In this document: piece after piece, positions 1-28,466 of the stretch
Position numbering within the stretch: position 1 is the first letter of the stretch
Layout of the letters: every line of letters starts with the position of its first letter
Assembly (NCBI GenBank): GCA_031763025.1
Contig: JASSKH010000006.1
Location: 8,801,691-8,865,690 of the forward strand
Direction: 5' to 3'
DNA length: 64,000 nt
Source of the DNA: Macrocystis pyrifera
Taxonomy: Eukaryota; Sar; Phaeophyceae; Laminariales; Laminariaceae
Notes under the pieces: model-generated
Told to the model about the DNA's origin: nothing
Seen by the model: the letters and a program-made list of their open reading frames with translations, nothing else
Databases searched by the model: none
Translations under genes and position numbers: made by a program

Positions 1-76
1 GGGTTCTCCCCGGGGCGCCGCGGCCAGCGGCATGATTATTCATGCCGGCACGGCCTAAGAGGCTATCGCTCTTGGG

Positions 77-283: not shown

Positions 284-655
284 GGGCCGTCGGACCTCGC
301 GCTGGGGCTGCTCCGGTGGTCCTGCCTCTCGGGAATGATGGATCTCCGCCTGTAAAGCAGTCGATGACACAGCTCAAGTTCACGTGGCTTGCTTCGGCTC
401 CGTGGAACGTGCCACGCCGACTCGGACAAACACGAAGCCGCAAATTGAACAACACGAAGAGCAACAGAAGTCCCGAAACAATTCTTGTCGAGTTTGATGT
501 TTTTGTTGTTTCGATTCACAACGCCTGCCTGCTTTTGGTGATTGATTCATTTTTCGACCCCGATCAGATGCCCAAAATCAAACCAGACGAAAAAAAATAT
601 TTTCGCAATAACTATTCTATTAAAAAAAAAAAAGTGCTCATTAATTCGGGCTCTA

Positions 656-700
<45 letters not shown>
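656..700. repeat. poly-G tract, 45 bases
   Basis: An uninterrupted run of about 45 G on the + strand. Unlike most G/C runs here it has no clear copy of the poly-C element beside it. It may form G-quadruplexes, and its assembled length is unreliable. Confidence 0.9.
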
Positions 701-704
<4 letters not shown>

Positions 705-796
705 GGAGAGCGCTCGTGCGTTGGTAGGGGTGGCATACGGCACCCATTTTTGTCTGAGGCTCAAACTAATCCCACTTAGCCATTCACATTCTAAGC

Positions 797-834
797 ATTT
801 TGTCCTCAAAACGGGACTGCAGTATTCAAAGGGC
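797..834. mobile_element. MITE-2 half copy
   Basis: Carries one end of the family (TTTTGTCCTCAAAACGGG, then ACTGCAGT and a purine-rich flank). The opposite arm is not visible upstream, so this is a truncated copy. Confidence 0.45.
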
Positions 835-1203
835 CAAGGAGCTCTACTGCATACTACTGTAGTACCTCCACCCATCCCCCCCCCCCCACCCCGATTTTTG
901 ATGCGAGCTGGGCCAGCCAAGACCATGCAGTTTTTATGTTCGTTCTGCGCTTTCGCAACCCTTTGGAACTCTTATGCCTACAAATTTGGCAACACTGACT
1001 GCTACCGGGCCGGCAGCGCGTTAGCCGACCTTAATTTTTTTGGAATCCGATTTGATTTCGTCGAGAAAATTAGAGAAGAAAAATAAATAAATATTTTTCG
1101 GTCGATGTCCGTCAAATGTCAACACTAAAATCTGTTCGATAGTCCGATAAACGATGCCGCTTTAACTTTCCTTGAGGCGTGCCCCCGGTACAGACGCCCT
1201 TAC

Positions 1204-1314
1204 TATTACGGGGGGGACCATAGTAAATAGGACCTATGGTGCACACAAACACCCATATATTTCCTTATTTTCACTAGCAATATTTGGTCCTATTTACTAT
1301 GGCCCTCCGTAATA
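1204..1314. mobile_element. MITE-1 copy, complete
   Basis: Reference description of the family. The element is TA-flanked. It begins TTACGGGGG, continues CCATAGTAAATAGGACC, and has an AT-rich centre (CCTATATATTTCC, ATTTTTACTAACAATA). It ends with the inverted arm GGTCCTATTTACTATGG and CCCGTAA. The terminal inverted repeats are about 27 bases and the whole is 107-111 bases. It has no coding capacity. The TA target site, small size and long inverted repeats fit a non-autonomous Tc1/mariner-like DNA transposon. This copy has one extra G in the left arm and CCCTCC in the right arm. Confidence 0.85.
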
Positions 1315-1743
1315 ACTCCTAATTCGATTCCCATCAAGAGATGTGGCGTGTATTCGATATCCTACACAAAGTCAAGATATTACGGTGAGATCCACAAAAT
1401 CTGCGATTCTCACGCCGTTTTTTTTTTTTTTTTGTTACACGCCTTTCTTACGGGCAAAACTTTTTATTTATTTATTTTTTTGCTTCAGTTTGGGTCATGA
1501 ACATTTTTTGGTCATTTTTTTAAATGTGCCTCAGCTCCCGAAAAAAAAAGCAAAAAAAACGAGTGGTGCAGTTACTAATCCCTCGGGAAAACTATGACGG
1601 AAGAAAGAACGTGTCAAATTTTGAGATCGAGGTTCGAAGAAACGGACTGAGAATGTGCCTGGAACCTGATAAAAGGCTGGTCTTGGCTGGCCCAGCTCGT
1701 ACATGGGGGCGTGTCCTATAAGGTGTATGGTGGGGTGGTATCG

Positions 1744-1853
1744 TATTACGGCGGGACCGTAGTAAACAGGACCAAATATTGTTAGTAAAAATAGGTAAAT
1801 ATATAGGTTTTTGTGTGTGCCGTAGGTCCTATTTACTATGGTCCCCCGTAATA
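1744..1853. mobile_element. MITE-1 copy, complete
   Basis: Inverted relative to the copy 430 bases to its left, since the arm next to the AT-rich centre reads ACCAAATATTGTTAG first. The left arm has substitutions (ACGGCGGGACCGTAG). The right arm is intact. The element is followed by a CTC-rich stretch. Confidence 0.85.
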
Positions 1854-1860
1854 GCCCCCA

Positions 1861-2160
1861 TTTTTTGGGAGGCTCCTCCTCCTCCTCCTCCTCCTTCCGT
1901 GTGCGCGAGGAGCGCTCATCATGTTGTACCTCCGCCCGATTTATTTTTTACGGTTTTGATGGAAGGGTAGCCTCCTCCTCTTCCTCCTCCTTTCGTGCGT
2001 GAAGAGCGCTCATCATATCATCACGTTATAAACTCCTCTCCGCCCGATTTGTTTCCAACCGTGATAGATGGGCGGGGCGTGTGCTATATATATATATAAC
2101 ACGGTGATAGCCTCCTCCTCCTCCTCCTCCTCCTCCTCCTCCTCCTTCCGTGCGGGGAGG
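1861..2160. repeat. CTC/TCC-rich segment with repeated 110-130 base units
   Basis: Three similar units each contain a (CTC)n run, then CCTTCCGTGCG...GGAGCGC(T)CATCAT and a CCTCCGCCCGATTT motif. They lie at roughly 1870-1965, 1972-2060 and 2110-2205. The perfect triplet run is longest at 2110-2146. No coding evidence. Confidence 0.7.
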
Positions 2161-2591
2161 AGCGCGATCATATTATGACATGATACCTCCGCCCGATTTA
2201 TTTTTGCGATTTTGATGAAAGGGTGCACGTGTGCTGTGTGTGTATACACGGTGCTAGAGGTGGTGCATAACGAAGAAGTTAGTTCGCACTAAATGGGCTT
2301 TCTAAGGGGGGTATGGGTGGGTGGTGAACGGGTGCTTGCTTCTGTTATCGTCCGTGAGCCGTGTCTCGCTGGACGAGAGCCGTATAGAGCTTCCCAAGGA
2401 GGTAAAAAGTAAAGAGTAAAAAAAAGACAAAAAAAAAAAAACAAAAAAAACTTGTTTTTGGCCTTCAATTTGGGATATTATAGGGTTTGGTTTGAGTTCT
2501 CGTCTATTCTTCCCAAGAAACAGAGGGGGGGAGGGACCCGTACCCCCCCCCCCCCCCCCCCCCCACCTCAAAACGGCGCTTAGCGCTTGGT

Positions 2592-2718
2592 GCAAGCAAT
2601 GTAGGCCTGGTCGGTGAAAACCCGTGCTCCGTCCCGGCAATATGTTGAGATGCGAGGGTCTATGGTCATACGACTACGGCCATGCTGGACTTCAGTAGCG
2701 CCCCCCCCCCCCCCCCCC
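2592..2718 (+). mobile_element. poly-C element, type A, diverged copy
   Basis: Begins near CTTGGTGCAAGCAATGT and contains the core GTCGGTGAAAACCCG, CCGTCCCGGCA, GATGCGAGGGTCTATGG and TCATACGACTACGGCCATG. It ends in a run of about 20 C (2699-2718). The last bases before the tail are changed (GCTGGACTTCAGTAGCG instead of GCATGA..GAGTAC). Confidence 0.65.
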
Positions 2719-2745
2719 CGCACATTATATATTATATATTATATA

Positions 2746-3281
2746 CGGGTTGGGTTGGCGTCGGTTGGCAACGACACTGTAAAACATGCCGCTCACTACG
2801 TGAGCTAGACATCCAGGGTACCGTTTTTTTTTCTTTTTCTTTTTCTTTTTCTTTTTTTTTTTGGCGGTCGCCCACAGCTGGTCGTCGAGTTAGATCATTT
2901 GTGCGAAGTATAGAACCTTTACTCTCTGCACAAGGGAATTGATCGTATCACGTAGTGTTCAAGGTAAGGCACCCAAGAGGCAGTTACATGGTACTCCCAT
3001 TGCTGTCTCTGGAAGTGGCCACACACGGAAATTAAACTAACTCATTGAAGCTGTCATCCATATGCAAGTCCGCCTCACAAGCGGTTCTTAGTAGGATGCA
3101 GCTCACCCTTCATGCGAATCGCCGGACACCTCACGGCGCTTCGCGCTTGGTGCAAGCAATGTCTGCCTGGTCGGTGAAAACCCGACATGCTCCGTCCCGG
3201 CATTGTAGGGATGCGAGGTTCTATGGTCATACGACTACGGCCATGCATGAGATCGAGTACATCTCTCCTATCGAGTACACC
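2746..3281 (+). mobile_element. LR-1 repeat, copy 1 (about 540 bp)
   Basis: Nearly identical over its length to 32769-33322. It starts GGGTTGGGTTGG, continues through GACACTGTAAAACATGCC, an interrupted T-rich tract, GGCGGTCGCCCACAGCTG and TTGATCGTATCACGTAG. It ends in a type A poly-C element (3138-3281). No open reading frame of note. It could be the 3' end of a LINE or a long composite SINE; the matching 3' part suggests the short poly-C elements derive from it or share its tail. Confidence 0.75.
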
Positions 3282-3299
3282 CCCCCCCCGCACCCTGCT
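3138..3299 (+). mobile_element. poly-C element, type A
   Basis: Reference copy of type A. Features in order: GCGCTTGGTGCAAGCAATG; a short potential hairpin in GTCGGTGAAAACCCGAC; CTCCGTCCCGGCATTG; GGGATGCGAGG; CTATGGTCATACGACTA; CGGCCATGCATGA; GAGTAC; then C9. The element also forms the 3' end of LR-1. No A or B box is obvious. Confidence 0.7.
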
Positions 3300-3370
3300 C
3301 TGTCCTGGCATTGTATTATAGGGACGCGAGGGTCTATGTTCATACGAGTATGGCCATGCATGGTACGAGT

Positions 3371-3412
<42 letters not shown>
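3296..3412 (+). mobile_element. poly-C element, type A with a 41-C tail
   Basis: A 5'-truncated copy starting at CTGTCCTGGCATTG. It ends GCATGGTACGAGTAC followed by 41 uninterrupted C (3372-3412). It directly follows the previous copy and is directly followed by a type B copy. Confidence 0.7.
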
Positions 3413-3413
<1 letters not shown>

Positions 3414-3490
3414 CTCCGTCTCGAAAGGGATGCGTGGTCAATGGTCAAATGACTAGGGCAAGCAACAAATGAGTACGCCCCCCGCCCCCA
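3413..3490 (+). mobile_element. poly-C element, type B
   Basis: Reads CTCGAAAGGGATGCG, GGTCAATGGTCAAATGAC, TAGGGCAAGCAACAAATGAGTAC, then a C-rich tail. It lines up with type A from GGGATGCG to ATGAGTAC, so A and B look like subfamilies of one element. Confidence 0.65.
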
Positions 3491-3627
3491 CCACCACTCC
3501 CCTCTCAACCCTCACCCTCTCAGCCCTCCCCTCCTAGACACCCCGCTCCAACCCCCCACTCACCACCCCCCCCCCCCCCCCCCCCCGCCCGGCCCGCCCA
3601 CCCGCCCGCTCCTCCTCCTCTTTACAG

Positions 3628-3788
3628 CTCAAGCGCACGGTGAGCCGGAACCAGCTTAACAGGGAGGTGGAACCCTCGGAGGACAGCCCGGGCGTGATGG
3701 ACCCGCCTAGGCACCGCGTCTTCTTGGAGGAAGGGTCGAACGTCCTGCTGCTGAGGGGGGTGCTGCACTCGAGGGCCAAGACCACCTT
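3628..3788 (+). CDS. gene A exon 1 (first recognised): uncharacterised protein
   Basis: A strong acceptor (pyrimidine tract ending TTTACAG) precedes an open frame LKRTVSRNQLNREVEPS...; the exon ends ...HSRAKTT plus TT before GTGAGA. Codons are GC3-rich throughout. The split codon TT+G (Leu) joins perfectly to the exon at 4397. Together the two exons give a segment with alternating hydrophobic residues (RVFLEEGSNVLLLRGVL, then VTIVRDISGPVEF), which suggests a beta-rich folded domain. I recognise no family. The true start codon lies upstream of 3628 and was not found, so the protein is N-terminally incomplete here. Confidence 0.7.
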
Positions 3789-3997
3789 GTGAGAGACTTG
3801 AACATGCTACATGCTCGTACGTCTGTATTAACACTCTCGTCCACAAAAGATAAGGATGGGTAGTATTGAAGATCAGTGCGCAGATGGTTGTGCTGGGCGC
3901 TGGCACGGTGCGTACCACTCACTGGCAGTGGTAGTCTCTACTGATTTGACCTGGCCAGTACATTCGCCAGTATTTTTTTTTTAAGAAATATATATTT

Positions 3998-4226
3998 AGC
4001 GGAAAGCGCGAGAGCTAGCGTGAGTTAGCTGCTGCACATTCGACGAAAATCGACGAGCAGTGATGGGAATGCTGAACCCTGTGCGCGACAAAAAATTAAA
4101 GGCACGTACGTACCGGGGGGGCAGAAGGGACGAAGCCTGTGAAAAGCCTGTGACCGCGGCTTGTCCAGAAGATCACTGAGGGTAAAAAACCTCCTACGAG
4201 TTAGGCTGGAAAACTAAAAGTGATGG
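3998..4226 (+). mobile_element. SINE-1 copy, 5' truncated
   Basis: Matches the body of the full copy at 54592-54931 (GCGGAAAGCGCGAGAG, GAAAATCGACGAGCAG, GGAATGCTGAACCC, ACGGCTTGTC) but lacks the tRNA-like head. It lies in the intron between gene A exons 1 and 2, in the same orientation as the gene. Confidence 0.7.
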
Positions 4227-4396
4227 TATCTTACGTTCGCCCGAAAAAGAACACGCCGCTTTCAACATCACTACCCGCCACCACCGCTCCCACCGCCTCT
4301 TTCCTCCGCAATCGCCACAACCAGCACCGCAATCACGCACACACACTCCTTTACCCCCACCACCGCTCGTGACCAACCCGCCCCCCCCAAAAAAAG

Positions 4397-4510
4397 GTTC
4401 GATGCCGTGTCCAAGGAGAAGGCGGTGACGATCGTCCGCGACATCTCCGGCCCCGTAGAATTCTCGGAGGGCTCGGTGATCTTCATCATGCCCTCCGTCC
4501 TTCTGGCCAG
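4397..4510 (+). CDS. gene A exon 2
   Basis: Runs from the acceptor AAAAAAAG|G to the donor GCCAG|GTGAGC. The frame reads FDAVSKEKAVTIVRDISG, then PVEFSEGSVIFIMPSVLLA. It continues the codon left open by the exon ending at 3788, which is strong support for both. GC3 is high. The exon ends in phase 2 (AG left over), which does not fit the start of the next clear exon at 5361. Either an unrecognised small exon lies between, or a base is wrong in the assembly. A C-run and A-run replace a normal pyrimidine tract at the acceptor. Confidence 0.7.
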
Positions 4511-4596
4511 GTGAGCCGCGCGCACTACTGCTTTTATCATTATTCTAGTAGCTAGTATTAATAACAGGTTGTTTTGGTTTATTTTTTGCAGCGAAA

Positions 4597-4955
4597 GGGC
4601 AGCTACTGGAATACTTCGTATGCCGGTATTTACTGCAGTTACTAGTGTACTTCGTATGCCGGACCTGGTATTTTCTGTAGTTACCCGTGACAGCTACTGG
4701 TATGCGGTAATTACTGTAATTACCGCAGTTGCTGGTGTACTTCGTGTACCGGACCTTGCACATCTGTAATTTCCCCCAACAGCTACTGGTGTACTTCGTA
4801 TACCGGACCAGGTGTACCCGTAATTTTTGTAACAGCTACTGGTATGCGGTAATTACCGGCAATTACCGCAGTTACTAGTGTGCTTCGTATACCGGACCAG
4901 GTATATCCGTAATTACCCTTAGCAGCTACTGGTATGCGATAATTACCGGTAATGC
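4597..4955. repeat. minisatellite of about 110-base units in intron 2
   Basis: Three to four imperfect copies built from the phrases CAGCTACTGGTATGCGG, TAATTACCGCAGTTACTAG, GTGTACTTCGTATACC and GGACCAGGTATATCCG. Each phrase recurs in the same order, with small changes. Confidence 0.75.
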
Positions 4956-5001
4956 GTTTCGGCGGTAGGTTTGATGCCTTTTGCGGTCCTCCACATTTTG
5001 C

Positions 5002-5062
5002 TATTACGGGGGTCCATAGTTAATAGGACCTATGGTATACATAAAAACCTATATAGATACAA
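5002..5062. mobile_element. MITE-1 left half, truncated
   Basis: Left arm (TATTACGGGGGTCC, ATAGTTAATAGGACC) and about half of the AT-rich centre, then unrelated sequence. The right arm is missing. It lies in the region between gene A exons 2 and 3. Confidence 0.65.
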
Positions 5063-5114
5063 CTATAATTACGATTTTTGAGGTCGTTGTCACTTGCTAG
5101 CTCTTGGCAGACAG

Positions 5115-5290
5115 ACCGACTGATAGACAGCTCTTCGCAAACAGCCCTTCTTCTTTGAAACAGCCGAACAGCCAAACAACCTTTCTTCCTTCTTTGAAAC
5201 AGCCGAAAAGCCAAACAACCTTTTCTTCTTTCTTCTTCGCCAAATAGCCAAACAACCTTTTCTTCTTTCTTCTTCCGCAAACTGCCAACC
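5115..5290. repeat. short tandem repeat, unit AAACAGCCGAA(C/A)AGCC + CTTCTTTCTT
   Basis: Four imperfect units of about 40-45 bases alternate a GCCAAACAACC phrase with a CTT-rich phrase. Open frames across it are low-complexity artefacts. Confidence 0.7.
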
Positions 5291-5360
5291 AGTAGACAGC
5301 TCTTCGCACGGCGCCTAAAAGAGGCGTCTCGCCTTCGACGAACGGCATAGATAGGTGCAG

Positions 5361-5724
5361 CTGTCGGCGGCCAAGCTGCTGCTGTCGGTGGCGAACCTGG
5401 TGGTGCTGCAACCCCCGCCTCTCCATTCTCCACGCCCCCTAAGCTCACCTCCCCCTCGTCGAGAGGCGCGTGGAACTCGCCCTCTGGCAAGAGAGCGGCA
5501 ACTACAAAGACCGACCTGGTGCCGGCTGTTGTTTGCGACCAGTGCACGGACCAACACTTGGTCAAGAACTCCGCGCCTGGTGGCAAAAACGTGGCCTTCG
5601 CCACCTGCAAGGATCTCACGTGCGTGGTGGCGGGATCATCCTGACAGGGCAACCGACTGCGAGTTCTGTGCTCGCCCGATCAAGGAAGGGACTGTCTCGT
5701 ACTCCCTCGAGACTGCTGACAGTG
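5361..5724 (+). CDS. gene A exon 3: Ser/Pro-rich linker and first Cys clusters
   Basis: After GTGCAG the frame reads AVGGQAAAVGGEPGG, a Pro/Ser/Thr-rich linker, then TTKTDLVPAVVCDQC and CTDQHLVKNSAPGG with AFATCKDLTC. A shift at the GGG of 5632-5634 moves to HPDRATDCEFCARPIKEG, ending SYSLETADS plus G before GTGAGT. The two parts look like one protein with a single missing G, because both halves have coding character and a 28-base intron is implausible. Two cysteine clusters appear (CDQC with CKDLTC, and CEFC), so a zinc-binding role is likely. The start is uncertain: the acceptor may be GTGCAG at 5360 or TAG at 5354. Confidence 0.65.
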
Positions 5725-5894
5725 GTGAGTGTCTTATGTCTATTGTGCATGCTGTATGTTGCCAGTACGTTTTTTCGGGATTTTCAATTGCCTTTTTGCA
5801 TACAATCCTACGTCAAAGCGTTTTTTTTTTTTTTTGACTCATCCATGCTCGTTCTTTCCCTTTCGTCCGTTGCGTCGGCTCCTCTTACACACAG

Positions 5895-5986
5895 TGAACG
5901 CGAACGCGCACATGCACAACTGTTTGCGGGACGTGAACGAAGGAACGCAGGATTCAGCTGTCGCCGTCACCGCTGCACCGAACGAC
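5895..5986 (+). CDS. gene A exon 4: completes the second CxxC...H/C cluster
   Basis: Acceptor ACACAG and donor GAC|GTGAGT. The split codon G+TG (Val) joins the exon ending at 5724 in phase. It reads NANAHMHNCLRDVNEG and ends AVTAAPND. HMHNC would supply the His and last Cys to go with CEFC of the preceding exon, about 30 residues away. This spacing recalls PARP-type or other CCHC fingers, but the flanking residues do not settle it. The donor is followed at once by a CTG-repeat intron. Confidence 0.7.
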
Positions 5987-6372
5987 GTGAGTGCTGCTGC
6001 TACTGTGGTGCATTTTTGGTGCATGCACACGATTTCTGCGTGTACATGTTTTGGTGACGCCACGTACTCATTTTTTGCTCGTTTTCGGCTGCCGCTGCTG
6101 CTGCTGCTGCTGCTGTCAGCGCCACGCCATGAGTGCTGCTGCTGCTATGCACCTGCTTCTCCTGTGCACTCGCTGCTGCTGTAGTGCTGCTGCGTTGTTG
6201 CCGTGCTGCGCACTGCTGCTGCTCCTGTGCAATTGCTGCTGCTGTATGTAGTGCTGCTGCGTTGTTGCCATCATGCTGGAAGCGTACATATTTTCGGATC
6301 GTCAATTCCGTAGGTTTTGCGATGGCGGCATACCAGGGTACATGCTTTTTTTTCCTTATTTTCATATCGTTG

Positions 6373-6410
<38 letters not shown>

Positions 6411-7628
6411 ACGCTGCCAACGCTGCGGCGATTCGTTGCAGCTTCTGCTGCTGCTAATGCTGTGGCTGCTTTCTGCTGCTGCTGCTGCTGCTGCTGCCGC
6501 AATATCCACTGAATGTTCGTATGTACTCGGATTACTGTTTTTCTTGGTCGTTTTTGTACCCAAATGGTTCTTTTGATACGTGAAAAAATATTTTTGTCGT
6601 TTTGCTCCTGCATTTTGCGTACGTACTGCAATTTCTTTTTTTTGGCTTGATTATTTTCATATATATCGTTGCTATGCTGCTGCTGTGGTGCTGCTGCGTT
6701 GTTGCCGTACATCATGCTGCACTTGTGTGTGTACATATTTCGGTATCGTCAATGAAATTCCGTAGGTTTTGCGATTGCGGCATACCAGGGTACATACTTT
6801 TTTTCTTCCTTATTTTCATATCGTTGCTATATGCTGCTGCTGCCAACGCGGATTATTGTTTTTATTGGCCATTTTTGTACCCAAATGGTTTTTTTTGATA
6901 CGTAAAAAATATATTTTGGTCGTTTTGCTCCTGCATTTTGCGTACGTACTATTAATACTTTTTCTCGTATTTCGTATTGTTGCTATGCTGCTGCTGCGTT
7001 GTTGCCGTACAGCATGCGGAGGTGGGTCTATAGTGAGGTACCAAAAATACTTTTCGGACGGCCTCGGGGTACATACTTTTTTTCTCCCTTCTTTTCATAT
7101 CGTTGCTATGCTGCTGCTGCCAACGCTGTGGCGATCCGTTGCTGCTTCTGCTGCTGCTGCTGCTCTGCTTTTAGTGCTGCCGCAATATTCACTGAATGTT
7201 TGTATGTACTCGGATAATTGTGTTTCCTGGTCGTTTTGTGGCGCTGCTGCGTTGTTGCCGTACATCATGCTGGACATGATTTGTGTCTCTATTACTCTCA
7301 AACTTGTGCGTGTGTACATATTTCTGTATCGTCAATGATTTTTTTTTGTGGTGCTGCTGCGTTGTTGCCGTACATCATGCTGGACGTGATTTGTGTGTGT
7401 ACTGTACTACACTTGTGTGTCTACATATTTCTGTATCGTCAATGAAATTACGTACTTGCTGCTTCTGCTTCTGCTGCTGCTGCTGCTGCTGCCGTCGTAT
7501 AGCAAGCGATTACGTGCTACTGTTGTGCCGCTGTAGAGTAGTACAAATAATGAACTCTGCCCCCCCCCCCCCGCCGTTCCCTGCACGCCACTCCCGCCCC
7601 GTGCACCCTATATGTTTACTTCGACCAG
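5987..7628 (+). other. gene A intron 4, full of CTG repeats and a repeated block
   Basis: No coding signal. (CTG)n arrays recur, longest at 6374-6408, 6476-6499 and 7470-7490. A block of roughly 250-450 bases is repeated three to four times between about 6250 and 7440. It carries TTGTTGCCGTACATCATG, CGTCAATGAAATTCCG, GGCATACCAGGGTACA, TTTTCATATCGTTGCTATG and TTTTGTACCCAAATGG. A C-run (7560-7572) lies 56 bases before the acceptor. Long Leu/Cys-rich open frames here are artefacts of the repeat. Confidence 0.75.
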
Positions 7629-7800
7629 GTCCGTGGCAAGTGCTACAACTGCCGCCTGACGGACTCCACCATCAACGACGGAGACATCATCATCAAGCGC
7701 AAAAAGACTCCCTTCCATTTCGCCTGCTCCAGGGCTTCGCGGAATTCCGAAGCAGTACGCCAAGCAGATTGTCGCCATCCAGGACGAACGAAAGGAAACA
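7629..7800 (+). CDS. gene A exon 5: third CxxC...HxxC cluster, frameshifted
   Basis: Acceptor CGACCAG, phase 0, matching the end of exon 4. It reads VRGKCYNCRLTDSTINDG then IIIKRKKTPFHFAC: C-x2-C, about 22 residues, H-x2-C, a plausible zinc ligand set. Just after the last Cys (7727) the sense frame changes by an indel. The continuation is GLRGIPKQYAKQIVAIQDERKE. That CxxC, hydrophobic/basic spacer and HxxC followed by a small motif is reminiscent of CCHC fingers that bind DNA or RNA, but this is inference. No good GT donor is seen after 7790, so the 3' limit is approximate. It also does not connect clearly to exon 6. Confidence 0.62.
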
Positions 7801-8350
7801 AATTGTTTCCCACATTTCCCAAAATCACGATTATTTCTTCCTACACATATCCAACGGGTTCAACAGCGAACATATCCACATTCTGGGCCTCCCGCCTCGT
7901 TACTACAGCATCCTGGAAGACTATTTACATATCATGTCTCATTCAAACTCCTATGCTGGCTACATCGAAATCGCGGCCGCCCAGCAAACTATACAACATT
8001 TCCAGAACCGTTGTCGTTGCCGGCACTGCTGCTTTCTCTCCTGTCCCAAACCTTCCCTTAAACAACAGCCTGTATGTTGTATATCATCCACATGCCAAGC
8101 ACTACTCCACTCTCTCCCCACACTGATGAAACATGTGTTTGCTTATTATTAGACGAATGTCATTCTTACTCTTGCGTCACCCAATCTTACGTTTCACATT
8201 ACATTCACAAATAAACGCGATTATTACATCCTTCACCGTTTCTTACACAAATACATTTAGTTTGGTTGGCTTTGGGCTATGTCGCCAATTAATTGCAGTT
8301 ATATGTACACGAAACGACGGGATACATACCCACTCCGAAGGAAAGCCTTG

Positions 8351-8410
8351 TATTTACCTATTTTTACTTTACAATATTTGGTCCTATTTACTATGGTCCC
8401 CCGCGATAAC
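8351..8410. mobile_element. MITE-1 right half
   Basis: Centre and right arm only (ACAATATTTGGTCCTATT, TACTATGGTCCCCCG). The end is mutated to CGATAA. It lies in the intron between gene A exons 5 and 6. Confidence 0.6.
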
Positions 8411-8589
8411 ATCTTACAAGGAGGCACGCATCAAAACGAAACGGCTCTTGAGTGTGTGCGGGTATATAGCTGTTGGGGTCTGGATGCAACAGCAGGATGC
8501 AACGGCTCTCCGGTGCCCAGTGTGTCCACATCTTACCAGTGCTGTGTCGGTAAAGAGCTGAGGGCGTTGCGTGTGTGCCCTGTCAGCGA

Positions 8590-8796
8590 GACTCGTGTGG
8601 TCTATGTTCGTACGATTACGGCCGTGCATGAACGTAGTGAGCGCCCCCAACTGTTTGTCGGAGGTGTTGTCTATATTAGGGAGGAAGGAACGGTGCTCCC
8701 CTCTCGAAAGGGATGCGCGGTCAATGGTCAAGCGACTAGGGCGAGCAACAAACGAGTACTCCCCCCAACCTCCCCCCCCCCCCCCCCCCCCCCCCG
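8590..8796 (+). mobile_element. poly-C element, composite of A core and type B, C tail
   Basis: A degenerate A core (GTCTATGTTCGTACG, ATTACGGCCGTGCATGAACG) is followed by a long type B copy: GTAGTGAGCGC, CGGAGGTGTTGTCTA, CTCTCGAAAGGGATGCG, GTCAATGGTCAAGCGAC, GAGCAACAAACGAGTAC. The C-rich tail ends at 8795. The tail stops 26 bases before the acceptor of gene A exon 6. Confidence 0.65.
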
Positions 8797-8821
8797 GTAC
8801 CCCGTGACTAATTGATTCCAG

Positions 8822-9020
8822 GTCGTCGTCCAGCCACCAACTGCTCATGCGCGAGATCGAGGAACGCCCCCGCGCCATGTCGGCTGCGGCTGCGGCTGCT
8901 GCGGGGGCGACGGGGTTGTTGGGTGATGATGACCTGCCCGGGTCGGGGTTGGCGCTGCAGCTGCAGACGGATTGGTCTTCTTCCACGGCGGGTCCTCTGT
9001 CCTCATCGTCTAGGTGGAAG
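8822..9020 (+). CDS. gene A exon 6: Ser/Ala-rich region
   Basis: Acceptor ATTCCAG|G and donor AAG|GTGGGT. It reads SSSSHQLLMREIEERPRAM, an Ala tract, then GLLGDDDLPGSG and TDWSSSTAGPLSSSSRWK. One leading base completes a codon, so the previous exon must end in phase 2. The exon ends in phase 0 and joins the next exon in frame. Composition suggests an intrinsically disordered linker with one short helix (LLMREIEERP). A poly-C element tail stands just upstream and a G-run begins about 30 bases downstream of the donor. Confidence 0.72.
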
Positions 9021-9050
9021 GTGGGTGTATTTTTCACGGAGGGGTAAGGA

Positions 9051-9170
9051 GGGGGGGGGGTGGGATGGGGGGGGGGGGTGTACTCATGTATGGCATGGCC
9101 GTAGTCGTAGGCCCATAGACCCTCGCATCCCTACTACAATGCCGGGATGGAGCGCATCGCAAAGTCAGGT
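9051..9170 (-). mobile_element. poly-C element, type A, minus orientation
   Basis: On + it reads G-run, GTGTACTCATG, GCATGGCCGTAGTCGTA, CCCATAGACCCTCGCATCCC, AATGCCGGGATGGAGC. It is the reverse complement of type A, so its tail is the G-run at 9050-9079, just after the gene A exon 6 donor. Confidence 0.65.
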
Positions 9171-9193
9171 TTTCACCGACGAGGCAGACAATG

Positions 9194-9196
<3 letters not shown>

Positions 9197-9236
<40 letters not shown>

Positions 9237-9345
9237 AGTACTCATGTCATGCATGGCCGTAGTCGTACGGTAATAGACTCTTCGTAGGGTTCCCCGTAGT
9301 GTCGGGACGGATGATGTCGGATTTTCGCCGACCAGGTAGATATTT
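9197..9345 (-). mobile_element. poly-C element, type A, minus, 39-base tail
   Basis: A G-run of 39 (9197-9235), then TAGTACTCATG, GCATGGCCGTAGTCGTACG, and a diverged body (GTGTCGGGACGGATG, TTTTCGCCGACCAGG). Confidence 0.65.
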
Positions 9346-9483
9346 TCTTCCACCAAAAGCGAAAACGAAGCCAGGTCAGGGGTTCGGCGAGTCGCATGAA
9401 GGATTAGTGACCTGAATCGTGCGAAGAAGGGCTCGCGAGGCGTCCTTTCTTGCATATGGATGACGGCGTCGAAATAATTGGTC

Positions 9484-9516
9484 GGGGGGGGGGGGGGGTG
9501 GAGGGAGGTTAGGGTA

Positions 9517-9551
<35 letters not shown>
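9484..9551. repeat. two poly-G tracts
   Basis: G-runs near 9484-9498 and 9519-9550 separated by GGAGGGAGGTTAGGGTA. No poly-C element core is visible here. They are in gene A intron 6. Confidence 0.8.
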
Positions 9552-9552
<1 letters not shown>

Positions 9553-9837
9553 GGGGGTTGTTTTTGTTGTTGTTGTTTTTGTTGTTTGTTTTTCGGTACA
9601 CAGGGTGTGTCCACTTGTTGGCATTCCTAGTGTTTGCTTCTCCTTTTGGTCTCCTTTTGATTTCGGAGTACTTCGCCGAAGGCAGCAGCAGCAAACAGCA
9701 AACAGCGACATTCATTCTCACGATAAGACGAACGAAAAATAGTGACGCGAGCGAAAAGAAAAAGGCGTTCTCTTCTTCCACGAGCACTTCTTTCCCGTCC
9801 CTGCCCTTGTCTCCAACCCATATTCCCCCGGTTTTCC

Positions 9838-9960
9838 GTCTCGAATGGGATGCATTGTCAATTGGCCGAATGACCCATAAGAGCAAGCGACAAATGGGTA
9901 CCCCCTCCCGCCTCGCCCCCCGTCCCCCCCGCCCCCCTCCCCTTCCCCCCTTCCAACCTG
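9838..9960 (+). mobile_element. poly-C element, type B, degenerate, C-rich tail
   Basis: GTCTCGAATGGGATGC, TTGTCAATTGGCCGAATGAC, AGAGCAAGCGACAAATGGGTAC then CCCC with scattered T and G to about 9955. The tail forms the pyrimidine-rich stretch before the acceptor of gene A exon 7. Confidence 0.55.
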
Positions 9961-9967
9961 AGAACAG

Positions 9968-10090
9968 AACCCCCCCCTGTCGAGCAGCGGGACCCGTTTG
10001 TCGGCGACATCAGCCGGGGTCGGGGCTCCCCCTTCGCCTTCTCGGCTCAAGCACGTCGGGGAAGTTTCTGAACGAAACGCGGTCGCCACG
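9968..10090 (+). CDS. gene A exon 7
   Basis: Acceptor GAACAG and donor ACG|GTGAGA, exactly 41 codons, phase 0 to 0, in frame with exons 6 and 8. It reads NPPLSSSGTRLSATSAGVG then SRLKHVGEVSERNAVAT. A TGA stands in frame just upstream of the acceptor, which supports the splice site. Ser/Pro/Gly-rich, likely disordered. Confidence 0.7.
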
Positions 10091-10460
10091 GTGAGAGGGA
10101 CAGAGGAGAGAAGAGATTTTGGGACAGAGGTGGTTTTACGTCTCGAGCGGACTAATCGATTCCCAGTTCATGGCCTAAACGTAGATTAGATGGGTTCAGG
10201 GCACGTACAGATCATAGATCACTGATCTGATCTTTACGTATGATCTTCTGTACATACGTACGTACCAGTATTTGATAGCTCATGCGCGTTTGCCACGTGG
10301 GGCTAGAGCTGCGTGCTGTCTGTGTGCGTGCATGGCGTGTACTGCTTGCAGGGCAGGGTTCGCTGGTGTTGTGCCTGAACTTGGAAGTATTTTTTTGGTA
10401 TTTCTCGAGACAACGCGGTAGCGCCACGGTGAGGAGGGAGAAAGAGGCAGTTGGTTCCGC

Positions 10461-10711
10461 ACACACGGATAGATAGATGATCGATTCTTAAACTCCTTTT
10501 TTTTTCATTTTTTCCTAGAAATTTCGGAGCAGATGTTCTTTTGATCTGTATACTCCTGCCATTATATACACCAGACTTTACGTCACACCCACGGATAGAT
10601 GATCGATTCTTACTCTTTTTTTATTTTATTTTTTTATTTCCTAGAAATTTCGGAGCAGATGTTCTTTTGATCTGTATACTTACTCCTGCCACTGTATACA
10701 CTTGACTTTAC
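10461..10711. repeat. tandem duplication of about 120 bases in intron 7
   Basis: CACGGATAGATGATCG, CCTAGAAATTTCGGAGC, AGATGTTCTTTTGATC and TGTATAC..ACTCCTGCCA occur twice in the same order (10461-10578 and 10583-10711). Confidence 0.85.
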
Positions 10712-11013
10712 GCACGCCGCTGTACACAGCTACGTTGCACGTGCCGCTACATATTTTGGCATTCGTGCACCTGCAACTCTGCCGCTGCATTGCACCTTGC
10801 CGTTGCATCCCACCTGCCGCATACATCGCACCTGCCGTTACATTTCGCGTGCAGTTACATGCGTGCACCTTACGTACTACCGCTGTACATACGGTATGCA
10901 CGCGTACTCGATGAATGATTACGCTATGCTGCGATCTTTTTTAATACCAAAACAAATACAAACACACGCAACACAAAACACACACAGGACGCGCCCTCCA
11001 TTGCTGTTATCGT

Positions 11014-11047
<34 letters not shown>

Positions 11048-11284
11048 TTGCTATGTTTTTTGTTTTGTTTTTGGTCCCAGTATACCTTGGGGTATGTGAT
11101 TCAGCTCATCCTATTTTTGTTTTGTTAACAGTTCGTGTAACGGCCGGCGTGCGCAAAAACATTACCACTGAAAACAAAGAATATATTTCGATTCTTTCCA
11201 TTTTTTGTATTTCAAATTTTGTGTGTGACTCACGGCCGAAACGTTTGCGTGAAAAAAACAACAAAACGAAAAAAAAAAAAACAG
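10712..11284 (+). other. rest of gene A intron 7
   Basis: Contains short repeated phrases GCCGCTACAT/GCACCTGCC (10730-10870), a (CTG)9 run at 11019-11046 and AT-rich sequence to the acceptor AAAAACAG at 11284. No coding signal. Confidence 0.6.
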
Positions 11285-11632
11285 GACGCGGCTACCATCG
11301 CCGCGGCGGACGAGGCCCACCCGATGCTGCACCCGGACACCCTCCGCCGCAAGAGGACCCTCCGGGACGCCGGCCTCGCGGCGAAGGCGACCTTCTCCTC
11401 CACTACCCCCCGCCGCCGCACCTAATGGTGGGTACGGTGGCGGTGGCTTTGGTTCTAGCCGATCGTCAGGGGCGGCGGCGGCGGGGCTGTCGCTATCGGA
11501 GTCGGGGCCACGAGCCCGTGTGTTGCCCGGCGACCAGCTAGGCCTGAGGGGGAGCGGGAGCGAGCGTGGCGGCGACGGCGGGCAGAGGGGTCCCGCGCTC
11601 AGAACGGCGCGCATGGCGCTGAAATCTTCAAG
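11285..11632 (+). CDS. gene A exon 8, with a one-base frameshift
   Basis: Frame 1 reads DAATIAAADEAHPMLH then TLRRKRTLRDAGLAAKATF with almost every codon ending in G or C. It meets TAA at 11423-11425. One base later, the frame reads APNGGYGGGGFGSSRSSG, then LSLSESGPRARVLPGDQ and RTARMALKSS plus AG before GTACAT. Removing one C from the C6 run near 11406-11411 joins the two frames and makes the exon end in the phase needed for exon 9. I therefore treat the stop as an assembly indel or a recent mutation. Alternatively the protein really ends at 11425. The region is Gly/Ser/Arg-rich. Confidence 0.68.
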
Positions 11633-11673
11633 GTACATGAAGTATATGGGGTACGGGTTAGGTTTTGAGGTTT

Positions 11674-11676
<3 letters not shown>

Positions 11677-11708
<32 letters not shown>

Positions 11709-11907
11709 CGTACTCATTTGTTGCTTGCCTTAGTCATTTGACTATTGACCACGCATCCCTTTCGAGACGGAGCACCGTTCCTACTCCTAATAGAGACACC
11801 TCCAACAATTGGGCGCTCATTACGTTGTTTCCATATATTACGTAGAAACTTTTAGCTAATCTTATCCCCTTCCTGTTTGGCCTCCTTTGGCCACCATCTA
11901 TCTCCTA
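11677..11907 (-). mobile_element. poly-C element, type B, long copy, 32-G tail on +
   Basis: On +: G-run 11677-11708, CGTACTCATTTGTTGC, TTAGTCATTTGACTATTGAC, ACGCATCCCTTTCGAGAC, TAGAGACACCTCCAACA, GCGCTCATTACGTTG, CCTCCTTTGGCCACC. The same order recurs at 13099-13323, which shows type B is at least about 220 bases long. It lies 45 bases after the exon 8 donor. Confidence 0.7.
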
Positions 11908-12053
11908 GGATAGCGATCGTTTTCTCGCTGCTATTCATTGTATCAAACTCCTCCATGTCACATTCGTCTATTTTCCTCATCTCCTCTTCCAACACATACC
12001 GTTCCTGTTTTGTATATTTCACATTCTCCTACTATGTGAGTTCTACTCTCTAT

Positions 12054-12072
12054 GGGGGGGGGGGGGGGGGGG
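12054..12072. repeat. poly-G tract in intron 8
   Basis: About 18 G followed by TAGGGGGTGGTGGGG. No element core next to it. Confidence 0.8.
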
Positions 12073-12419
12073 TAGGGGGTGGTGGGGAGTGTGCGAGAGT
12101 ACCTGGTAGCAACTTCCAGCAAGACTAAAACTGTTTGTTGTCCTTTTTGGGCTCAATTGGTTGACTGACTATTCTATCAGCATTGCTTTTGTGAAACATA
12201 TGCTCGCGAAAGAATTATTAATAGTTGCTTGTTTTTTTTTTCCCCCCATCAGGGAAGGACCCTTCCAAATTTAGTTCCTGCGCAGTTGTTCTCTTTAAAA
12301 AAAAAAAGATGGGGGGGGGGAAGGAAAAGGACGAGTTCAATTTTGTTCCAGCCAGCTTTCTCAATAATCTTATTTTCATGTTTTCTCGCCTTTTTAGCGC
12401 CAGCGGTGGTGTGGGTTGA

Positions 12420-12720
12420 GCAGAGGTAGTGGGGTGGGGTGTGATACGATACGATAGATGGCGATAGGTACGGTGTGGTGTGTGTATTGCGGCGCGGTGA
12501 GGTGCAGTGTGGTGAGGTAGAGGTCCGTACGGTACATGTGTGTTGTCGGAGAAGGTACGCAGGTGTTTTTATTTTTGTGTGCAATAGGAGAAGATTATGT
12601 GGTGGTTGCGTTGCGTTGCGTTGCGTTTTGTTGTATTGTGTTGTGTTGTGTGCCTTTTGTGTCTTTCCCCGTCAATTTTTTCGGTTTTTGTTTTGTTTTG
12701 ATTTGGCTCGTCTCACGCTT
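12420..12720 (+). other. GT-rich part of gene A intron 8
   Basis: Strongly G/T-biased on + with repeated GTGTGGTGTG and (GTTGC)n/(GTTTT)n phrases. Open frames here are artefacts of the composition. No coding signal. Confidence 0.6.
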
Positions 12721-13098
12721 GTTCGCGGTTGATATGTACGTGCTCGTTCGGTGTTTCAGTTGGTGCTGTGCGGCGTTCGTTTCTCGGAAAGAAAACCAGA
12801 AATAATGTTTGAAAAATATTGTGATGTTTTTTTTCGCATTTTTTATTTTTTTGAAAGCTTTTTTCGCAAGCAAGTCTCTCGAAACCTGCGCCCGTCTCTG
12901 CGTTGTGTTCAGGTGGTGCGTTGTGTTTTTTCCGTTTATCGGAACAGAATAACGTGAAGCATAAATGTTGGAATAATGTTCATATAAATATTATTATTTT
13001 CGCAAGCAGCTACCCTCTAACCTGCCCTTTGTTCGTCGTTTCCCGGACCGGACGGCTCACACGCTGCCCTCCATCGTGTGTGCGCGTGTATGTACGTG

Positions 13099-13334
13099 GG
13101 AGGGGGGGGGGGGACGCGTGCTCATCTGTTGCTTGACTCGGCCGTTCGACCATTGACCGCGCATCCCTTTCGAGACAGTAGCACGGTTCCTACTCCTAGT
13201 AGAGACACCTCCAACAGTTGAGCGCTCATTGCGTTGTTTCCCTATGTTCGATAGATATTTTGTTTTTTCCCTCGTGTAGTCTTACCCCCTTCCTGTTTCG
13301 CCGCCTGCGGCCACCATCTATCGGGGGGGGGGGG
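13099..13334 (-). mobile_element. poly-C element, type B, long copy, G-runs at both ends
   Basis: Same layout as 11677-11907 (CATCTGTTGCTTGACTCGG, GCATCCCTTTCGAGACAG, GAGACACCTCCAACAG, CCTGCGGCCACCATCTATC). A G-run lies at each end (13100-13112 and 13323-13334). The right-hand G-run ends 12 bases before the acceptor of exon 9. Confidence 0.7.
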
Positions 13335-13346
13335 CGGTGACGGCAG

Positions 13347-13485
13347 GAACAACGGAGACTCTTTCGTGGAGATGATGGAGGTCCCGGTGGCTAACATGGA
13401 CGAAGACTCCCCGAGGTCCAGGGCGCATTCGGCGCTGCTGTTCCCCGACGACCAAAACATCAACCACGCGATGCACGCCGCCCAG
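13347..13485 (+). CDS. gene A exon 9, GC donor
   Basis: The split codon AG+G joins exon 8 in phase. It reads NNGDSFVEMMEVPVANMD then SALLFPDDQNINHAMHAAQ and joins exon 10 in phase 0. The acceptor GACGGCAG has no pyrimidine tract: a G-run and GGCGGTGAC precede it. The donor is CAG|GCAAGA, a GC-AG type with otherwise ideal neighbours. Acidic and Met-rich. Confidence 0.7.
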
Positions 13486-13635
13486 GCAAGAGATACATAC
13501 GGCAGGCCGCTTGTGGTACTACTCCAGCCGTGTCAACGTGATCAGCGTGGTAGCCCAGGGGGCACGTAGAAAAATTTACTTGCAATCCCGATGCCCCAAT
13601 GTTCTCATTTTGCAAGACCCGAGACACGGGGCGGG

Positions 13636-13745
13636 GGGGGGGGTACTCGATATCATGCATGGCCGTGGTCCGGGGGGAGGGGGTGTGTGGTCATTATCAT
13701 GCATGGCCGCAGTCGTATGACCATAGACCGGGGTGGGGTATACTA
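13636..13745 (-). mobile_element. poly-C element, two stacked type A stubs, minus
   Basis: G-run, GTACTCGATATCATGCATGG, then a second start GTGTGGTCATTATCATGC, GGCCGCAGTCGTATGACC, ATAGACCGGGG. Both are truncated within about 60 bases of the tail end. Confidence 0.6.
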
Positions 13746-13774
13746 GGACCGAGTAAAACATACCAGGTACCAGG

Positions 13775-13880
13775 TATTACGTTGGACCATAGTAAATAGG
13801 ACCTACGGTACACGCAAAACCTATATATTTCCCTATTTTTACTAACAAAATTTGGTCCTATTTAGTATGGTCCCCCGTAT
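13775..13880. mobile_element. MITE-1 copy, complete
   Basis: Left end altered to TTACGTTGGACC. The right end runs into a T16 tract, so the closing TA is not distinguishable. It sits in gene A intron 9. Confidence 0.8.
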
Positions 13881-14151
13881 TTTTTTTTTTTTTTTTCGAA
13901 AGTTCGTTGAGAAATCCACGCCCCCGGTGGTGTTGTTTTTTAGGTGCGTCTACGTATTGTAGGAGCGCGGTGTTGTTTTTTTCAAATGTTTTTGTTGTGC
14001 TCTTGGTGCATACATACTGCGGAAGGGCCGTGGCACCGTTCGTCGCACGTCGTCAGTTGTCAAGAGGTAGGAAGAGAAGAAACAAGAGTGGCGGCCCCAG
14101 CTTCCACCCGGACGATCGTTGGGGTTGCTGTGTTGGTGATGGTTGTGGGGG

Positions 14152-14182
<31 letters not shown>

Positions 14183-14327
14183 GATGGTGATGGTGTTGCC
14201 GTTCGTGGGGTGGTTGCTGCTGCTGCTGTTGGTACTTTGTTGTTAGTGTTGGTGGTGTTGTTGTTGTTATTGACTGTCCGCTCCCCTCTTTCTAACGATG
14301 TTTCTGCTCCTACTCGACGACCCCCAG

Positions 14328-14456
14328 GTTGCCCGTCGCCTGGAAGAGGACCGCGCGATGGCGGCTCGAGCGGGGAGGGCAGGGGCAGGGGGGCGGCAGG
14401 TAGCGGACGAGGACAACGACGATATGTTTGGCGTCACTCTTGACGCGGACGACTAA
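14328..14456 (+). CDS. gene A exon 10 (last), acidic C-terminus
   Basis: Acceptor CCCCCAG, then VARRLEEDRAMAARAGRAG, GGRQVADEDNDDMFG, VTLDADD and TAA. Phase 0 with exon 9. Codons are GC3-rich. The basic, Ala-rich start would make a helix; the end is acidic, a common pattern in nuclear regulatory proteins, though no function can be read from it. After the stop comes non-coding sequence with (GATC)n and CCAATCAAC repeats. Confidence 0.72.
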   Translation, partial: VARRLEEDRAMAARAGRAGAGGRQVADEDNDDMFGVTLDADD

Positions 14457-14653
14457 GGGAACCGACTGGCCGTGCGCCAATCAACCAATCAACAGATCGA
14501 TCGATCATGAGATGATTGGTCATCCAACAGACAACGGATCAATCAACAGATGCTCGATCAACCAACCGTCCTCGAGAGTTTAGGCTGCTGGGAGGCGGGT
14601 TTTGGTGGAGAGCAAAAGAAGGGAGGGGGAGAATGCTGGTTAGAAGGGATGGC

Positions 14654-14786
14654 CTACGTCAGTAGGCTGGCTACTCTTAGTATTTTACCCCTGCGTCAGT
14701 AGGCTACTGTAGTAGTTTATCCCTTCAATAGGCTACTGTAGTAGTTTATCCCTTCGTCAGTAGGCTACCGTAGTAGGTTGTCCCTT
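14654..14786. repeat. tandem repeat, unit about 36 bases, 3.5 copies
   Basis: Unit GTCAGTAGGCTACTGTAG plus TAGTTTATCCCTTC, repeated with small changes downstream of gene A. Confidence 0.8.
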
Positions 14787-15450
14787 CTAACCAACAGGGA
14801 GGGAGGGGGCGAGGGAGGGGGTATATCGTCCTATACGTGTTTGCGCGTACATTTTTGTCGAATGTTCTCTTTCGGCAACCGCAGGCATCGTTTTGGAGAG
14901 ATGGTGCGGGCGCGGGTGGGTATGCTGTACATCGATTTGCCCGGTTACAGAACGGGTTTGTTTCTTGCCCTGGGCTGGGAGTTGGTTGGAGGTAGATGGG
15001 GGTCCCTTTTTTTGCTCGAGCTGGGGTTTGTCGGAGGTTTAGAAGGGTCCTGCCATTCGCGCGGACCAATGCTTGGGGCGCAGCTTTGTGGGGCTTTTGT
15101 TCACAGGGAGGGGAGGGAAGGGGGAGGGTTGGGGGTTTTGCCACCCTGCCTCCCCTTTATTTTACGTGTGCGTTTCGCGCTTCTTGTTTCTGCACAAAAA
15201 GGCATGGGTGCCGTGTTTTTGGGGAGCTCGTGAAGACCTCTTTCGGCCTTGCTGTACTGGTTTTGATGTAGACGGTCGGGCAGTCGAGGGATCAAACCTA
15301 ACCACGGCCTCCTGCTATAAAGCATGTTTGCTTCTGCGCGCTGGCCGGATAACCGGCACCCCGCGTGCCGCGTTCGACAGGCACCACCCCACCCATTGCA
15401 TTGTTACGGCAGGCGTTGATTCGGTTGATGAGCCGAGCGAGCATCCGACG

Positions 15451-15621
15451 GCTATATACACACACGCGCACACACACACACGCGAGAGGCGCGGCGCAAT
15501 GTCTCCGTGTTGCGTGCATCCCGACCCCGGTGTGTACTACGACTGTAGACGCTCCTCCCGTGCTCCCGACGATTTTGAGAGGGAGTGGAGGAAGCACTAC
15601 ATGTTCGGCGCGAGAGGGTAG
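15451..15621 (+). CDS. possible exon, unknown product
   Basis: An open frame ends CCVHPDPGVYYDCRRSSR, APDDFEREWRKHYMFGARG and TAG. Residue mix and codon use look coding from about 15499 (ATG) onward. Upstream it is a (CACA)n repeat. No splice sites confirm it. Unknown family. Confidence 0.28.
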   Translation, partial: AIYTHAHTHTRERRGAMSPCCVHPDPGVYYDCRRSSRAPDDFEREWRKHYMFGARG

Positions 15622-15882
15622 GGAATGTATGTGCGTGTGCGCGTAGTTGTATGCGCGTAAAAACTCGCACCCCCACGTTTTCGGTACGTAGAGTGGCGTA
15701 ACACTGCAGAGAAAGACGCACGCCCTCTGAAAGCGGCATGGATATAAACGGTTTATAGCTCTGGATGTTTTGGGTATTTGAGTGTGGTTCGTCGGTTTGT
15801 GTTTCCGCCGGTTTTGCATGCCCGCACCCCCTCGGTATTTTTGGTTCTCAACAGCGATGGGCACAGTGGTAGATTTGAAGGA

Positions 15883-15931
15883 CTCGGGGGGGGGGGGGGG
15901 GGGGTGGGGGGGGGGGGGGGGGGGGGGGGGG
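15883..15931. repeat. poly-G tracts
   Basis: Two G-runs broken by one T (near 15887-15904 and 15906-15931), with no element core beside them. Confidence 0.8.
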
Positions 15932-16649
15932 ACACCCTCGTTGCCTCCTCGTTTGGTTTTGGTTTGGTTTTGGGGGTGCTTGCTGTCCACGCTGTAGGGA
16001 TAGAAATATACAGGAGTAAGGTGCGTGTATCTTTTTATTGTTGTTGCTGTTGTGTTGTTGCGATTGGTTTTGCTTTGTTTCTGTTTTGTGCCGTGTTTGG
16101 TTTCTGTCTTGTTTAGTTGTAAATGGCGCACGTGGTTCGACTTCGAGCGACGCCGCTGCCTCTGCTCCACCTTTTATCTATTTGACGGGCACTAAGCTAT
16201 GCACTGGCTTGTTTGTATTTTAGATTTTGTGGTAAGAGGAGCAGCAGAGCGCAACAAACGCTGCGGCAGCAGCATCGGAACGAACTACTGTAACACACAC
16301 GTTCATACCCAATACGTTTCACGCATTTACGTGCGCGTGTATATTTGATGACGTAGTTGACACACATCACGCGACCAAGAGTCTGAACAGGCGGACAGAA
16401 CAGCCTTAGCCTTTCCACCAGCCGGCAAAGCGCAAGTTACTGCTGCTGTAATGTCACTGCTGTGATAGATATTGATCTCGCCCGCGCTCGCCTTGCATGG
16501 TGTGCTTTGTTTTTTCGATCGACCGCCCTACGAAAAATGCGCAACCACCCGATGGAGAGGAGAACACCAACAAATGGGATTACTCGTACAACTCCCCAGT
16601 TTCCTGGGGTCCAACCTTCCGCACCTCGGACAGATAGATATAGATTGAT

Positions 16650-28148: not shown

Positions 28149-28206
28149 GTGATGATGGTGATGATGATGATGATGATGACGATGGTGATGATGACGATTA
28201 TGGTGG

Positions 28207-28255
<49 letters not shown>

Positions 28256-28406: not shown

Positions 28407-28437
<31 letters not shown>

Positions 28438-28466
28438 CGACGATTATGGTGGTGATAATGATGATG

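Follow-up and report, generated by a model that had tools for sequence, protein, structure and literature searches.

Poly-C-tailed elements in Macrocystis pyrifera turn their tails towards exons at intron ends and seem to insert into C-tracts

The window, a stretch of 64,000 nt of the Macrocystis pyrifera genome (C220:8801691-8865690), contains copies of two related families of short elements, K1 and K2, which end in a C tail. It belongs to an assembly of 537,376,219 bases in 223 contigs, given as 35 scaffolds and 188 contigs (537 Mb) in the accessible part of its description (PMC10498591). In kinesin and ABC-transporter genes of this assembly, K copies shortly before exons lie in sense orientation and copies shortly behind exons nearly always in antisense orientation. 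The orientation flips between the two intron ends and, therefore, the C tail faces the exon on either side. To our knowledge, such a flip is unusual for an element. We consider it rather probable that intron ends, with their polarised tracts, have been colonised by a retroposon with a poly-C tail; this tail would be tolerated there and may be used as pyrimidine tract or as G-run enhancer. A first-pass annotation of the window had described C-runs before acceptors and G-runs behind donors of a predicted gene, here called gene A. Its interpretation is partly supported. It did not foresee that the elements themselves sit in C-tracts, near exons and away from them.

For an independent test the genome was searched for kinesin and ABC-transporter domains, so that gene A, where the pattern was first noticed, was avoided. 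Within 350 nt of the raw edges of the kinesin exon matches, 13 sense and no antisense copies were found upstream, 2 sense and 18 antisense copies downstream (p 1.8e-7). The tail faced the exon in 31 of these 33 copies. The kinesin figures are given first, because ABC loci on contigs C207 and C219 resemble duplicates with near-identical K copies; both loci were kept in the copy, flank, density and orientation counts. The sign flip was also seen for the ABC transporters alone (4/0 upstream and 0/5 downstream, sense/antisense), in small counts which may include duplicated loci. Both families together gave 17/0 upstream and 2/23 downstream. Collapsed to resolved splice sites, acceptors had 10 sense and 0 antisense copies, donors 2 sense and 13 antisense copies (p 2e-5), and the copies in the favoured orientation were spread over 10 (acceptor) and 13 (donor) distinct 30-kb bins. 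An overall strand bias was absent, with 34 sense and 36 antisense K copies in the gene loci. The orientation described for gene A, plus before acceptors and minus after donors, is thus found again at the predicted splice sites of two further gene families.

Out of 131 kinesin exon matches 119 entered the list, together with all 19 ABC-transporter matches, and the flanks were examined for 131 of the 138 listed matches. A duplicated kinesin block on contig C208 was counted a single time; its two parts, near 6,607,000-6,617,000 and 6,221,000-6,228,000, lie in opposite orientation and show paired equal scores. Matches without a passing splice motif were dropped, so that the kinesin and ABC exons contributed 112 acceptors and 81 donors. 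The splice-site scorer used for the run tests, the site-based orientation test and the density tests ignores the pyrimidine tract. The orientation counts within 350 nt are based on raw exon-match edges and are independent of this scorer. The window and locus L039, which covers the 10 kb upstream of it, were included in the counts of K copies and 5' flanks and excluded from the gene-locus density counts.

The second line of evidence comes from the 5' flanks. A run of five or more C was detected in the last 20 nt before 36 of the 65 single, non-tandem copies, a corresponding G-run before none of the 65. Background 20-mers carry such runs in 2.8% (C) and 2.7% (G) of cases. More than half of the single K copies have a C-tract just before them on their own strand, and none has a G-run there; K elements therefore seem to enter C-tracts, with insertion on the C strand. 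This would be the simplest account of the 5' tracts. It points to targeting of the insertion as a main cause of the tail orientation.

The C-run before an element could also be the tail of another copy from the same event, made by template jumping, rather than an older target; the exon-facing bias would then have another cause. This reading is encouraged by the 21 of 86 copies which follow another copy on the same strand at a distance of up to about 110 nt, and rows of K, C-run and K are visible at 2543-3477 of the window. However, the C-run is about equally frequent before non-tandem copies (36/65) and before tandem copies (13/21), in a comparison in which eroded neighbours could go unrecognised. 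We regard template jumping as quite unlikely to explain the tracts.

The intron ends are themselves polarised. Runs of nine or more within 300 nt comprised 22 C-runs and 4 G-runs at the 112 acceptors, 6 C-runs and 17 G-runs at the 81 donors (Fisher p 4.5e-5). Counted per site, 17 of the 112 acceptors had such a C-run and 14 of the 81 donors such a G-run; gene A is therefore richer in runs than usual. The base composition followed the same pattern, with C at 0.33-0.34 and G at 0.19-0.21 in the stretch from 75 to 15 nt upstream of acceptors. Over about 75 nt downstream of donors, G stood at 0.31-0.35 and C at 0.20-0.22. At both ends the bias faded by 300 nt. Sites free of K matches for 500 nt retain the polarity in weaker form: runs of four or more within 200 nt were 89 C and 38 G at 77 acceptors, 28 C and 47 G at 52 donors (p 8e-6). 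Because these K-free sites show the same polarity in short runs, the tracts of the intron itself would guide the elements.

Selection alone was weighed as a further cause of the orientation. Elements would insert anywhere and in either orientation, and copies not facing the exon would be removed, since G-runs damage acceptors and C-runs damage donors. Wrong-way copies are indeed absent near acceptors, where 0 antisense copies compare with 5.3 expected from the mean density. Near copies are also more diverged, as if retained longer: in the gene loci, identity to the consensus was 84.7% near splice sites and 88.9% for the other copies. This greater divergence reflects either longer retention or a different age. 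Removal alone does not give an excess of right-way copies over the local mean, yet such an excess is strong at donors, with 18 antisense copies against 3.9 expected; 12 sense copies were found at acceptors against 5.3 expected. Sense copies at donors were fewer than expected (2 against 3.9), but without significance. Furthermore, C-tracts precede the copies equally often near splice sites (17 of 30) and far from them (19 of 33). Selection as the sole cause is therefore unlikely in our judgement. Removal of wrong-way copies may nevertheless add to the polarity of the K elements.

The preferred reading, insertion into polarised tracts, would work as follows. In target-primed reverse transcription a nicked G-rich strand would prime on the poly-C end of the element RNA; K would therefore enter existing C-tracts, with its tail on the C strand. 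Since the kelp introns in our sample are G-rich past the donor and C/T-rich before the acceptor, insertion at either end would leave the tail facing the exon. A tail in this position would be harmless or useful, as the C-tract could act as pyrimidine tract or lengthen it, and a G-run behind the donor could act as an intronic enhancer of that donor. An insertion in the wrong orientation would impair the splice signal and get lost. As a new C-tract would come with every insertion, the process would feed itself and introns would lengthen from their ends. The step from tail to splice signal is drawn from the general role of pyrimidine tracts and G-run enhancers in splicing and from the strand asymmetry of G-quadruplexes at human donors, as given in the available passages of PMC9065059.

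Several points weigh against this reading. A search for target-site duplications gave no clear case; its eight candidates were almost all C-rich and indistinguishable from the tract. The polarity of K copies does not clearly exceed that of K-free tracts, with 17/0 compared to 20/5 at acceptors (p 0.07) and 2/23 compared to 4/9 at donors (p 0.15), at distance limits of 350 and 200 nt, respectively. At K-free sites, runs of eight or more were too scarce for a clear contrast (8/1 and 1/3, p 0.052). A first scorer, which used the pyrimidine tract itself, gave no excess of C at acceptors: for runs of ten or more within 200 nt, 2 C and 2 G were counted at 41 acceptors, 2 C and 12 G at 39 donors. This scorer was dropped because it was biased and lost acceptors with a C-run farther upstream, for example at locus L010. 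The sample covers two gene families of one genome, with splice sites predicted from the sequence, and the K tails are putative splice signals.

The suggestion of the first-pass annotation that the elements supply polypyrimidine tracts stands in part. The exon-facing tails in the kinesin loci and the short distances between tails and acceptors in gene A are compatible with it and partly favour it, for a function that is predicted. Against it, recognisable K1 or K2 tails make up only 5 of the 22 C-runs of nine or more near acceptors, and 7 of the 17 such G-runs near donors. Therefore, other sources supply most of the runs. These may be other poly-C families, eroded copies or growth of the tracts.

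Two further suggestions of the annotation fared worse. Repeats at intron ends can bring these ends together by pairing, as known for (GT)n and (AC)n in fish introns, and the G-run on the donor side and the C-run on the acceptor side of one intron might join its ends in the same way. The polarity of the runs has the right sign, and the gene A intron between exons 6 and 7 starts with an antisense K1 and ends with a sense K2. However, G-runs of seven or more on the donor side and C-runs of seven or more on the acceptor side showed no association (odds ratio 0.94, p = 1; Spearman -0.27, p 0.21). This comparison covered the 24 of 42 intron pairs in which both splice sites could be resolved, a small sample with low power. 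We regard pairing as very improbable. Introns might also have been created by insertion of the element, as with introners, and elements are common at intron ends. But among 32 introns examined whole, 6 contained a K match and none was spanned by one, and the copies are truncated at differing 5' points and often stand in rows. An introner-like origin is hardly to be expected.

K1 and K2 are short and dispersed, share their 3' end, carry a tail of simple sequence and have the look of non-autonomous retroposons. The consensus of K1 (502 nt) was built from 15 copies and that of K2 (185 nt as used, some copies looking longer at the 5' side) from 11 copies, those of the window included. Both families have common 3' motifs (GGGATGCG..GGTC...ACTA.GGC) before the C tail. 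In the sampled DNA, 91 copies extend to the 3' end; the window has 17 of them and the other sequences have 74. The sampled gene loci hold 68 K copies in 245,669 bases, which is a rough guide as these loci are a non-random sample of the genome. K1 is variably truncated at the 5' side, as in copying of the type of long interspersed nuclear elements (LINEs): its copies start at positions 1 to 476 of 502, and 6 of 60 begin no more than 5 nt from the start of the consensus. The longest stop-free stretches in the consensus sequences are 71 aa (K1) and 53 aa (K2). Thus, the elements are too short to encode an endonuclease and a reverse transcriptase.

A structured-RNA or tRNA head was sought for the K elements, and nothing relevant was found with Rfam or ARAGORN. 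Rfam (positions 1-16500 of the window, E up to 5) gave 11 matches, all below the gathering scores, and no tRNA, 5S or 7SL RNA, a search which a decayed head could escape. ARAGORN with the bacterial code detected no tRNA gene in the window. With no RNA polymerase III-type head found in these searches, we leave K1 and K2 provisionally outside the short interspersed nuclear elements (SINEs) in the strict sense. A third family ending in poly-C (K3) was noticed by eye and with one BLAST match at 36733-36828, near 44765 and at 61589-61767 of the window. It has no obvious kinship to K1 and K2.

In gene A, the C-runs and G-runs named by the first-pass annotation are present, and their positions and distances were right within a few bases; several are tails of dispersed elements, which proved to be two related families instead of one. 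The coordinates are listed in Table 1. The window holds 26 C-runs and 26 G-runs of eight or more. Every such run at positions 2500-9000 is C. At 9051-15931 all are G, with the single exception of a C8 at 9970-9977 within predicted exon 7. Matches to C20 or G20 number 196 in the 64-kb window and 753,111 in 537.4 Mb, so that the density in the window is about 2.2 times the genome mean. Several predicted acceptors follow an element tail or a C-rich stretch after a gap of 13 to 41 nt. Before the acceptor of exon 7 (9968), a C-rich stretch lies at about 9901-9955, the nearest pure run being a C7 at a distance of 37 nt. Locus L039 contains two more probable exons, and both of them follow an element tail, with a C31 ending 23 nt before the first and a C14 ending 13 nt before the second. 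Against the pattern, exons 8 and 10 are without a C-run of seven or more within 150 nt upstream, and a G12 stands shortly before exon 9.

Table 1 Elements, runs and predicted exons in the window (positions of the window; exons and splice sites of gene A are predictions)
Feature	Position	Strand	Remark
C22, 5'-truncated K1, C19 tail	2543-2719	+	Element inside a C-tract
K1 aligned to consensus start, ending in C10	2736-3289	+	Start approximate
5'-truncated K1, C41 tail	3296-3412	+	
Truncated K2 (3413-3477), then C-rich stretch and C21 (3566-3586)	3413-3586	+	K2 right after C41
C21 and predicted exon 1	Run 3566-3586, exon 3628-3788	+	CAG acceptor, gap 41 nt
C8 and predicted exon 2	Run 4381-4388, exon 4397-4510	+	Gap 8 nt
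C13	7560-7572	+	56 nt before predicted exon 5 acceptor 7629; no adjoining K1/K2 match
K2 (8631-8759), C-rich tail, C24 (8772-8795)	8631-8795	+	Ends 26 nt before exon 6
Predicted exon 6	8822-9020	+	Preceded by C24; G10 and G12 start 30 and 46 nt after donor 9020
Antisense K1 after exon 6 donor	9051-9193	-	Tail reads as G10 and G12
Second antisense K1, G39 tail	9197-9470	-	Inner end approximate
K2 (9829-9901), C-rich tail	9829-9955	+	Precedes predicted exon 7 (9968-10090)
Antisense K2, G33 tail	11676-11860	-	Starts 43 nt past exon 8 donor 11632; end 11860 set by query
G12	13323-13334	+	12 nt before exon 9 acceptor 13347; counterexample to the pattern
K1 3' part, C11 tail	33185-33326	+	Outside gene A

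In the exon chain of gene A the phase does not fit from the second upstream exon to exon 1, and by eye the link of exon 2 to exon 3 looks doubtful. Some piece is therefore missing or misread there. A Pfam search with five exon pieces of gene A found no family at the curated cut-off; one weak match had an E value of 0.83. About 1.6 kb upstream of the first upstream exon, the minus strand of L039 (981-6319) carries long reading frames which resemble, by eye, a Copia-type polyprotein.

Further features were seen in the window. Short elements like miniature inverted-repeat transposable elements, with ends like GGACCATAGTAAATAGGACC in inverted repeat, were recognised by eye at 1205-1313, 1745-1855, 5003-5050, 8380-8405 and 13781-13876. 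For one of them Rfam returned a weak match, with a score far under the gathering score. The window also has long (TGA)n and (GTA)n arrays, at 28150-28758 and 63466-64000, and a stretch of N at about 23.9-24.2 kb, which appears as X in the list of open reading frames.

If insertion into splicing tracts is true, it would be a clear case of a parasite exploiting RNA-processing signals of its host as safe landing sites, and a route for the lengthening of introns. A wider form of this idea is possible, although we hold it for doubtful: intron ends would be the niche of the poly-C-targeting retroposon and splicing tracts its landing sites, its tails would have replaced or extended pyrimidine tracts and donor G-runs in a noticeable share of introns, splicing and parasite would depend on the same tracts, and introns would grow from their ends. 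The question whether a transposon tail can become the working pyrimidine tract of many genes is also made testable in one genome. For the annotation of kelp genomes the elements are a warning, as poly-C tails right before exons may be masked or misaligned.

A literature search in one open-access library, judged by title in the case of brown algae and SINEs, yielded no relevant report of a SINE with poly-C tail, in brown algae or elsewhere, and nothing on introners in brown algae. The non-autonomous, LINE-dependent RTEX-N1_Ec32 of Ectocarpus is similar to K by description: it is short, very abundant, has a 5' part of unknown origin and a common 3' end and is probably mobilised by a LINE (PMC12477816). 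The accessible passages of this source contain no poly-C tail, C-tract targeting or splice-site orientation for it; the term 'poly-C' itself was not searched as a word. Insertion into a simple tract is shared with the microsatellite-targeting non-long-terminal-repeat retrotransposons Togen, in (TG)n, and some HERO families, according to the part of PMC4640811 at hand. In contrast to these, the tract of K is poly-C and lies at intron ends, and K is too short to code for the enzymes.

Introners are, like K, mobile elements that shape introns, but K copies span none of the 32 introns examined whole. Primate Alu elements in introns demonstrate that the homopolymer of an abundant retroposon can act as pyrimidine tract, there as poly-T of antisense copies. 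In contrast, sense copies of K would place poly-C ahead of acceptors, and antisense copies would place G-runs behind donors. At human 5' splice sites, G-quadruplex motifs are enriched 5.56-fold on the non-template and 2.38-fold on the template strand, as stated in the passages available (PMC9065059). Different from the human donors, some of the G-runs in the kelp are supplied by a repeat family, and C-runs mirror them at the acceptors.

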